Below, one piece after another: positions 61,836 through 64,000 of a stretch of 64,000 bases of DNA. This DNA is from an uncultured Saprospiraceae bacterium (GTDB lineage Bacteria > Bacteroidota > Bacteroidia > Chitinophagales > Saprospiraceae): contig CALJOK010000046.1 in NCBI GenBank assembly GCA_937981555.1, forward strand, positions 1 to 64,000. Direction: 5' to 3'. Below the pieces are notes generated by a model. The model was given only the letters and a program-made list of their open reading frames with translations, made no database searches and had not been told where the DNA came from. The position numbers and the translations under genes were made by a program. Numbering within the stretch: position 1 is the stretch's first letter; each line of letters starts with the position of its first letter.

Positions 61836-61857
61836 ATTTCTATGTTTTGAGTTCCCT

Positions 61858-61895
61858 ATTCCCAAGGTGGCTTCAAGCCATCTTGGGAATAATTA
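61858..61895 (+). terminator. Terminator-like hairpin after msrB
   Basis: A 15-bp stem (61858-61872 with 61876-61890, one G-U pair) and a 3-base loop, but only a weak T-run follows. Confidence 0.65.
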
Positions 61896-61961: not shown

Positions 61962-61992
61962 TTGTTTTCCATAAAATTAACTATTAGGTTTG
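61962..61992 (+). promoter_or_regulatory. Promoter of the phenylalanine operon
   Basis: TTG at 61962-61964, a 20-base spacer and TAGGTTTG at 61985-61992 match the Bacteroidota TTG-N17-23-TAnnTTTG consensus well, the best match in the window. Transcription would begin around 61998-62000, shortly before leader peptide 1 at 62015. Confidence 0.7.
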
Positions 61993-62014
61993 TATAAATT
62001 AATCAAATAAAAAG

Positions 62015-62080
62015 ATGAAAAATCTTAAAAACAATTCATTTTATTTTAGCTTTTTTTATTTCTGGAACACTACGAAGTAG
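62015..62080 (+). CDS. Leader peptide 1 of the pheA attenuator (21 aa, aromatic-rich)
   Basis: ATG 62015, 21 codons, TAG 62078-62080. Codons 9-17 read FYFSFFYFW, eight of them aromatic (five Phe, two Tyr, one Trp). The frame begins about 15 bases after the predicted start of transcription and is followed by a strong terminator, as expected for a ribosome-sensing leader peptide. Too short for a functional protein. Confidence 0.8.
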   Translation: MKNLKNNSFYFSFFYFWNTTK

Positions 62081-62102
62081 GGGCTAGCTTGAATATGTTT
62101 TT

Positions 62103-62147
62103 AAACAAAAAAGAGTTCCTAAAGATTTTAGGAACTCTTTTTTGTTT
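62103..62147 (+). terminator. Attenuator terminator 1
   Basis: A 21-bp perfect stem (62103-62123 with 62127-62147), core aagagttcctaaa with tttaggaactctt, a 3-base loop, and T-rich bases in the right arm. It lies 22 bases after the leader 1 stop. Confidence 0.85.
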
Positions 62148-62189
62148 GCATTAAAAGATTTAAGAAAATGCAAAACTGAATATAGAATC

Positions 62190-62252
62190 ATGAAAATCCT
62201 AACCAATACATTTTATTTTTATTTTGGTTTCTGGTTTTACGATGCATCGTAA
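62190..62252 (+). CDS. Leader peptide 2 of the pheA attenuator (20 aa, aromatic-rich)
   Basis: ATG 62190, 20 codons, TAA 62250-62252. Codons 8-17 read FYFYFGFWFY, nine of ten aromatic (five Phe, three Tyr, one Trp). Same composition as leader 1 but independent sequence. Followed by a second terminator before pheA. Confidence 0.82.
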   Translation: MKILTNTFYFYFGFWFYDAS

Positions 62253-62295
62253 AGAGGACATTCATTTGATCTATTTATTCTTAGAATAAAAAATC

Positions 62296-62323
62296 AAAGT
62301 CCTCAGTTGAGGACTTTTTTTTT
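62296..62323 (+). terminator. Attenuator terminator 2
   Basis: A 9-bp stem (aaagtcctc 62296-62304 with gaggacttt 62309-62317), a 4-base loop and T-run to 62323, ending 20 bases before pheA. Confidence 0.87.
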
Positions 62324-62343
62324 ATTTAAATACAAAAATTTTA

Positions 62344-63258
62344 ATGAGTAATTACAAAAATTTAAAATCGGAGGAAGAGAAAATTGAAGCGGTTTCAGCC
62401 ATCAATTCTGATATTTCGAATCAGCCAAGAATTGCGATCCAAGGAGTACCAGGAGCATTTCATCACATCGCTGCTCGAAGATTTTTTAATGATAAAAAAT
62501 TAGAAATTATTCCAGCGGATACTTTCGATGAGTTAGTAATTAAAGCTGAAGATAAATTACAAACTGATCAAGCATTGATGGCGATTGAAAATACGATTGC
62601 AGGAAGCATCTTGAATAATTATCAATTATTAAATCATTCTAACCTTCATATTGTAGGGGAAGTTTATTTAAGAATTCAGCAAAATTTAATGGTTTTGCCC
62701 GGTGTGAAAATTGAAGATTTGACGGAAGTTTATTCTCATCCTGTAGCGATAGTGCAATGTTTGAAATTTTTCAAACAATATCCACACGTGAAATTGATTG
62801 AGTCGGAAGATACAGCGTTAAGTGCAAAACGGGTGAGAGATGGACAGCTAAAAAATACGGGAGCCATTGCAAGTTCCTTGGCTGCAGAGATGTATGGATT
62901 AGAAATGATTGGAAAAAGTATCGAAACTTATAAGAAAAATTATACTCGATTTTTAGTACTCGGTCGAACTGAAAGTCCTGTGAATAAAGAGTTTAATAAA
63001 GTTTCTCTTTGTTTTACTTTGCCGCATGAAGTAGGAAGTTTGCATCAAGTTTTAGCAGCATTGGCATTGTGTAAAACTAATTTGACCAAGATTCAATCTG
63101 CACCACTTTTGGATAGTGAGTTTGAGTATTTGTTTTTTGTAGATTTTTTATTGGACGAAAATAAAGATTTTGAGAGCATCATTAATGTCATCAAAAAGCA
63201 TACTTTGGAATTAAGAATTTTAGGTACTTACAATAAAGGAGAAAAACATGAACATTAA
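62344..63258 (+). CDS. pheA: Prephenate dehydratase
   Basis: Prephenate to phenylpyruvate, the last committed step to phenylalanine; 304 residues. Seen: N-terminal region with IQGVPGAFHHIAARRFF, ENTIAGSI, HPVAIVQC, YTRFLVLG (catalytic TRF), then a C-terminal ACT regulatory domain (about 215-295, SLHQVLAAL) that normally binds Phe for feedback inhibition. There is no fused chorismate mutase. Preceded by two aromatic attenuators and overlapping the next gene by 11 bases. Confidence 0.95.
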   Translation: MSNYKNLKSEEEKIEAVSAINSDISNQPRIAIQGVPGAFHHIAARRFFNDKKLEIIPADTFDELVIKAEDKLQTDQALMAIENTIAGSILNNYQLLNHSNLHIVGEVYLRIQQNLMVLPGVKIEDLTEVYSHPVAIVQCLKFFKQYPHVKLIESEDTALSAKRVRDGQLKNTGAIASSLAAEMYGLEMIGKSIETYKKNYTRFLVLGRTESPVNKEFNKVSLCFTLPHEVGSLHQVLAALALCKTNLTKIQSAPLLDSEFEYLFFVDFLLDENKDFESIINVIKKHTLELRILGTYNKGEKHEH

Positions 63259-64000
63259 GCAAGCCAGTAGATTAAACTCGGTCAAGGAATATTATTTTTC
63301 CAAAAAGCTCAAGGAGATTGCTGACCTTCGAGCAACTGGAAAAGATATCATTAACCTTGGAATTGGAAATCCAGATTTACCACCTTCTGATGCAACTCGA
63401 AAGAAATTGGAAGAAGCGATTTGGGAAAATAATACCCATGGTTATCAAAGTTACCGAGGTGCTCCACAACTACGCAAAGGTATTGCGGATTGGTATCAAA
63501 GATATTATCAAGTAGATGTGAATCCTGAAAATGAGGTATTGCCGTTGATCGGATCGAAGGAAGGAATCATGCATATCTCGATGAGTTTTTTGGAAGCAGG
63601 AGATGAAGCTTTAGTTCCAAATCCAGGTTATCCAGCTTATCGAACAGCTTCTATGTTGGCAGGTGCAAAAGTGGTTAACTATGATTTGGTTGAGGAGTTG
63701 GGGTGGATGCCTGATTTAGAAAAAATAGAGGAACAAGATTTGAGTAAAGTAAAAATCATGTGGGTGAATTTTCCCAACATGCCGACAGGTGCTGCTGCCC
63801 ATCCAGATTTTTATAACAAGCTAATTACATTTGCGAAGCGCAATGAAATTTTAATCATCAATGACAATCCTTATAGTTTTATTTTACGAGATCAGCCAAT
63901 GAGTCTGATGTCGATACCCGAAGCAAAAGATGTGGCGATGGAATTAAATTCGTTGAGTAAATCTCACAACATGGCTGGTTGGCGAATCGGAATGTTGGTC
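63248..64000 (+). CDS. Class I/II aminotransferase, 3'-truncated by window edge
   Basis: PLP-dependent aminotransferase, first 251 residues seen. Motifs: NLGIGNPDLPPS, YQSYRGAPQLRKGI, PNPGYPAY, and the PLP lysine in SLSKSHNMAGWRIG (Lys238). It starts at ATG 63248, overlapping pheA by 11 bases, so coupled translation is likely. With pheA it probably transaminates phenylpyruvate (and 4-hydroxyphenylpyruvate) to Phe/Tyr. It belongs to the LL-diaminopimelate/aspartate aminotransferase-like group, so specificity cannot be fixed by sequence alone. Confidence 0.93.
   Translation, partial: MNIKQASRLNSVKEYYFSKKLKEIADLRATGKDIINLGIGNPDLPPSDATRKKLEEAIWENNTHGYQSYRGAPQLRKGIADWYQRYYQVDVNPENEVLPLIGSKEGIMHISMSFLEAGDEALVPNPGYPAYRTASMLAGAKVVNYDLVEELGWMPDLEKIEEQDLSKVKIMWVNFPNMPTGAAAHPDFYNKLITFAKRNEILIINDNPYSFILRDQPMSLMSIPEAKDVAMELNSLSKSHNMAGWRIGMLV

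Follow-up and report, generated by a model that had tools for sequence, protein, structure and literature searches.

The 64,000-nucleotide stretch analysed here (hereafter the window), from a contig of an uncultured Saprospiraceae bacterium, carries before pheA, the gene for prephenate dehydratase, a leader region that very probably holds two complete ribosome-mediated transcription attenuators in series on the leader transcript of a phenylalanine (Phe) and tyrosine (Tyr) operon, as judged from its sequence and from comparison with related loci. In 5′ to 3′ order the region consists of one TAnnTTTG promoter, leader 1, terminator 1, leader 2 and terminator 2 (Table 1); leader 1 has 8 aromatic residues among codons 9–17, and leader 2 has aromatic residues at 9 of 10 consecutive codons. 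A preliminary description of the window had proposed this arrangement, and the coordinates of both leaders, both terminators and pheA, the terminator energies and the PF00800 match of pheA bear it out, as does, for the promoter before leader 1, a TAnnTTTG motif that recurs at related loci (see below).

Both leaders combine a short open reading frame (ORF) rich in codons for the products of the operon with an intrinsic terminator before the first gene, and for both an antiterminator that would form from the strand after the stop codon and exclude the terminator is indicated by pairing and comparison. On both strands of the window, three short ATG ORFs have at least 7 aromatic residues in 10, and a terminator follows leaders 1 and 2 only; 100 dinucleotide-shuffled windows gave 0.03 ORFs per window with at least 8 aromatic residues in 10, and none with a terminator. 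Terminator 2 was listed by a scan for σ70-type promoters and terminators and terminator 1 was not; our own script calls both.

Each leader is complementary to its own terminator

The post-stop strand and the 5′ arm of the terminator that follows it have complementary sequences (frequently GGGACT with AGTCCC, or GGGGCT with AGCCCC), and they covary between loci. Pairing was assessed at 41 loci with two attenuators (double loci), leaving out L061, a near copy of the Lewinella locus L003. The pairing of a leader with its own terminator was stronger than cross pairing at 34 of the 41 loci (Wilcoxon p 3.7e-6), and the duplex was better than that of shuffled strands, at p 0.05, for 33/41 first leaders, 28/41 second leaders and 31/63 leaders of loci with one attenuator (single loci). 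When terminator arms were permuted among loci, the true combinations had z-scores of -9.8 (leader 1) and -7.9 (leader 2), with 0 of 10,000 permutations as low; since the loci are related, the p values for pairing are inexact as probabilities. The stop codon lies in a hairpin of at least 5 bp in 32/41 first and 32/41 second leaders, against 12.0 and 13.1 expected.

The same loci were folded with a ribosome placed on the leader. A stall midway along the aromatic codons leaves at least three expected antiterminator pairs in 41/41 first leaders, 36/41 second leaders and 47/63 single leaders; a ribosome on the stop codon does so in 11 first leaders, 7 second leaders and 10 singles. The antiterminator of the window's leader 1 appears in the stalled-ribosome folds, and that of leader 2 was likewise examined in this model. 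The informative part of the model is that the strand after the stop codon sits where a terminating ribosome would be predicted to cover it.

One promoter motif precedes both leaders

Promoter motifs were counted at 40 double loci, as L092 lacks sufficient upstream sequence. The TAnnTTTG motif, which we take to be the promoter consensus of the Bacteroidota, lies at most 80 nucleotides upstream of leader 1 in 39 of the 40. Between terminator 1 and leader 2, where the spacer has a median length of 25 nucleotides, it was found in 0/40, which shows a lack of enrichment only, because the searched stretch is short (1390 positions, 1.1 sites expected by chance); anywhere from the first start codon to the second it occurs at 4/41 loci. 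A promoter scan of the σ70 type does not list the TAnnTTTG site of the window, and the three sites that it does list, against 5.4 in shuffled sequences, are uninformative. One promoter motif before leader 1, together with the pairing of each leader with its own terminator, places both attenuators in series on one transcript.

On this arrangement, RNA polymerase would initiate at the single promoter before leader 1. In each leader, a ribosome stalled at Phe, Tyr or tryptophan (Trp) codons would mask the 5′ side of the stop-codon hairpin, so that the post-stop strand, left free, would pair with the 5′ arm of its own terminator and transcription would continue; a ribosome reaching the stop codon would cover the post-stop strand, and the terminator would form. 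As transcription must pass both terminators, overall read-through should roughly equal the read-through of one multiplied by that of the other. We infer ribosome stalling, termination in cells and this product law, and a sharper, multiplicative response of the pair is plausible.

Several points weigh against two attenuators in series. Cross pairing is equal or stronger at 7/41 loci, and own pairing is no better than that of shuffled strands (p 0.05) in 13/41 second and 8/41 first leaders. The stop-codon hairpin of the window's leader 1 has merely 4 bp. Part of the fall in antiterminator pairing with a ribosome on the stop codon follows from the folding model itself, because the strand is then covered, and in the window leader 2 adopts the antiterminator fold even when untranslated (7.5 expected pairs), which makes its off state dependent on translation. 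To these may be added the short stretch available for a second promoter motif. The support, namely the parts themselves, the own-terminator pairing, the single promoter motif and the conservation described below, comes from sequence and comparison.

Table 1. Features of the pheA leader region and the genes behind it (window positions).
Feature	Position	Strand	Sequence or detail
Promoter	61962..61992	+	TTG at 61962-61964; TAGGTTTG (TAnnTTTG type) at 61985-61992; read from sequence
Leader peptide 1	62015..62080	+	MKNLKNNSFYFSFFYFWNTTK
Stop-codon hairpin of leader 1	62070..62080	+	CTAC-GAA-GTAG, 4 bp
Region 2 of leader 1	62078..62085	+	TAGGGGCT; partner 62114-62121 AGTTCCTA (putative antiterminator); duplex -10.1 kcal/mol
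Terminator 1	62106..62144	+	-21.3 kcal/mol
Leader peptide 2	62190..62252	+	MKILTNTFYFYFGFWFYDAS
Stop-codon hairpin of leader 2	62235..62254	+	TTTTACGA-TGCA-TCGTAAAG
Region 2 of leader 2	62254..62259	+	GAGGAC; partner 62299-62304 GTCCTC (putative antiterminator); duplex -11.3 kcal/mol
Terminator 2 and T run	62296..62325	+	Stem 62296-62317, -11.7 kcal/mol
pheA, prephenate dehydratase	62344..63258	+	PF00800, E 2.8e-54
Aminotransferase class I/II, second gene	63248..64000, continues beyond window	+	PF00155

The tandem is widespread in the family

The comparison covered 127 pheA loci, 91 of the window's family (89 plus L002 and L003) and 36 others, drawn from part of the 202 matching family genomes and part of the 256 matching phylum genomes; L011, L107 and L108 were excluded as duplicates. 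The same rule for calling a leader was applied to all loci: an ATG ORF with at least 6 aromatic residues in 10 and a terminator near its stop codon. Two attenuators were called at 42 loci, one at 63 and none at 22, some of the last being effects of the threshold or of contig ends. Forty of the 42 double loci fall in the window's family, in 30 of the 71 genus codes sampled (L003 counted with its near copy); the other two (L005, L006) come from distant metagenome-assembled genomes titled Bacteroidetes and Bacteroidales. L089, with a TTG start, and L076 also appear double by eye. Among the 89 family loci, L002 and L003 being counted apart, the script finds a single leader at 36 and none at 15. 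In place of an aromatic run, five loci of genus code g58 (L043, L044, L049, L050, L056) carry one leader with many Phe and isoleucine (Ile) codons that falls below the cut, such as MKNNFFINFINIFFCESS in L056.

The script called 11 of 40 further loci of the phylum single and 29 without a leader; at two of these, L222 (called single) and L223 (called none), two leaders and both terminators can be read by eye. A second family, code f28, also has the tandem: 4 of 30 loci were called double, and six more (L260, L261, L266, L267, L269, L287) have a second aromatic ORF whose terminator was not called; L222 and L223 belong to two of these genomes. The script found at most two leaders per locus. In L003 and L047, terminator 1 and leader 2 are more than 200 nucleotides apart, far above the distance in their relatives; no third leader is visible in this extra stretch of sequence, which in L047 contains repeated short inverted motifs. 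Being shared with other organisms, the tandem is a lineage-wide variant and no peculiarity of this one.

Conservation and history of the pair

Within a genus trio (the window's locus L001, L012 and L002), the two leaders and terminator 1 are preserved while the spacer before leader 2 drifts. Leader 1 of the window keeps 56 of 66 bases in L012 and 51 of 66 in L002; terminator 1 keeps 38 of 39 bases in L012, and the same in L002; leader 2 keeps 61 of 63 bases in L012, and the spacer before it 16 of 45. Across genera, first leaders are most like other first leaders in 34/39 cases and second leaders most like other second leaders in 30/39, which argues against the recent duplication of one leader. 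Separately, a PNQ-like start of the peptide occurs in the second leaders of 17/41 double loci (L046, L047 and L016, for example) and in 0/41 first leaders.

In a pheA tree of 125 rows, made by a quick method that leaves 45 of 122 inner branches open and lacking L055 and L061, one group of 75 rows contains 40 doubles (including two judged by eye), 23 single loci and 12 with none; L005 and L006 lie away from it. On this tree the double label requires 15 changes, against 35.3 when shuffled. This fits an old tandem in the window's family with later losses; one ancient origin with many losses across groups is possible.

The preliminary description is upheld on these points as well: its two independent attenuators in series by the own-terminator pairing, the one promoter motif and the recurrence in many genera, and its view that the leaders are not recent duplicates by their rank-wise likeness. 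The comparison of related pheA upstream regions that it had proposed was positive, with the tandem at 42/127 loci. It knew of no tandem version described in this phylum; a search of openly available papers found no natural pair of leader-peptide attenuators for the same signal.

Other readings of the two leaders

The two leaders might divide the labour, each answering a different amino acid (one mainly Phe, for instance, and the other more Tyr or Trp), and so form a two-signal gate. The operon supplies both Phe and Tyr, and second leaders do have more Tyr codons (mean 3.56 vs 2.88, p 0.0018) and more Trp codons (0.54 vs 0.34, p 0.0047). Phe codons, however, are equally frequent in both (4.73 and 4.85), Phe and Tyr are mixed in both, with a Tyr share of 0.38 vs 0.42 (paired p 0.07), and Trp is present in 14/41 first and 16/41 second leaders. 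We regard such a gate as unlikely; as a conclusion from codon content it was rejected, the differences being mild only.

That regulation comes from one leader, with the other being just a relic or simple terminator, might be suggested by the losses, which are common in the family (36 single loci and 15 with none, among 89). Yet the genus trio preserves leader 1, terminator 1 and leader 2 while the spacer drifts, and own-terminator pairing holds at both ranks, which makes a single working leader very improbable. It is just as hard to credit, as each leader–terminator unit being self-complete might suggest, that leader 1 and terminator 1 form an independent gene for a small RNA or small protein, with leader 2 under its own promoter, given the counts of TAnnTTTG between the leaders (0/40 from terminator 1 to leader 2, 4/41 from start codon to start codon) and the short spacer. 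That the nascent peptide, through its YGQP- or YGSP-like end, arrests the ribosome and is the sensor in place of transfer RNA (tRNA) charging is scarcely credible, since the YGxP codons are part of the stop-codon hairpin, so that these ends, shared by many leader peptides, are accounted for by RNA structure, and the motif is absent from the window's own leaders and from many leaders outside the family.

Other amino-acid operons examined have one leader or none

At trpE, hisG, ilvD and thrA of tandem genomes, compared as controls, two attenuators in series were not seen. In 17 tandem genomes, trpE is preceded by exactly one Trp leader in 17/17 (L132-L148), hisG by one histidine (His) leader at 14 of 17 loci, with none called at 3 (L162-L178), and ilvD by one leader rich in Ile and valine in 8/17, with none called in 9 (L289-L305); at thrA no leader was called in 17/17, so that this gene is uninformative as a single-leader control. 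A partial trpE hit in G067 was set aside. The 10 genomes of f28 with two aromatic ORFs before pheA have one trpE leader in 10/10 (L332-L341). Altogether, double leaders at trpE, hisG, ilvD and thrA number zero in the 78 loci examined. The single-leader trpE and hisG attenuators share the layout of the pheA attenuators, which we count in favour of two attenuators in series at pheA. On balance we favour the view that the pair is a natural, long-maintained series circuit for one signal, acting as a multiplicative switch on the Phe/Tyr operon only, in three separate groups within the Bacteroidota, and that the same cells keep a single attenuator for trp, his and ilv.

The operon and its surroundings

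Past the window's end, the contig (L040) continues with tyrA (PF02153, PF20463) and a gene for 3-deoxy-D-arabino-heptulosonate 7-phosphate (DAHP) synthase/chorismate mutase (PF00793, PF01817), so that the operon reads pheA–aminotransferase–tyrA–DAHP synthase, with pheA first. Its products act in Phe and Tyr synthesis and at the first step of the pathway, and the mixed Phe, Tyr and Trp codons of the leaders fit this. Operon content as the cause of the tandem was considered and rejected: among loci with enough downstream sequence, all three further genes follow pheA at 12/12 double and 23/26 single loci. Upstream, a 16 bp hairpin ending in a T-rich stretch (61857-61891) lies after a SelR-domain gene, between that gene and the pheA promoter. 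Farther along the same contig (L040:8124-14497) is a row of three genes, encoding a TIR-domain protein (PF13676), an AAA ATPase (PF07728) and a very long protein, which may be a defence or signalling cluster.

Relation to known attenuators

In textbook leader-peptide attenuation an operon has one sensor, and the enteric leader of the pheL type has a single leader with a run of aromatic codons, alternative hairpins and a terminator before pheA. The window's region resembles the latter (Rfam RF01859) in its aromatic codon run, alternative hairpins and terminator before pheA, and differs in having two leaders. The RF01859 covariance model gave 29.5, 22.6 and 20.6 bits, against a gathering score of 55, one match being on the wrong strand; no Rfam family reaches its gathering score in the 64-kb window, where matches are weak only, at expectation values of up to 10. 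Bacteroid-trp is a listed motif in the literature.

The Flavobacteriaceae have one attenuator at pheA. A transcriptome study of Flavobacterium psychrophilum describes a structured element 5′ of pheA, conserved in Flavobacteriaceae, and hints of leader-peptide attenuation ahead of amino-acid operons (PMC9723704); by our calls, pheA loci of the Flavobacteriaceae type have single aromatic leaders, in contrast to the two attenuators of the window.

Salmonella mgtCBR also has two short ORFs and two attenuators in one leader; their signals differ, ATP and proline, and they are reported to be independent and additive and to lack intrinsic terminators (PMC3641672). The codon make-up of leaders of the window's type is nearly alike, which argues against differing signals of that kind. 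Double T-boxes, reported at amino-acid genes of Firmicutes, and tandem riboswitches share the repeated sensor before one operon, but there the sensor is RNA that binds tRNA or a metabolite, whereas in the pheA tandem it would be the translating ribosome. Engineered attenuators in series have the same doubling and are synthetic and controlled by antisense RNA; they are said to improve dynamic range (PMC3753616).

The conserved doubled version would represent natural series circuits in many species, with relatives that have one leader, and other operons of the same cell that have one, as ready controls. They allow a direct test of whether repetition of an attenuator sharpens repression or only deepens it, and of why an operon for two amino acids would need it. 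A doubled attenuator should tighten the shut-off of the Phe and Tyr genes, and with the pheA tandem nature itself provides an experiment on the effect of such doubling.
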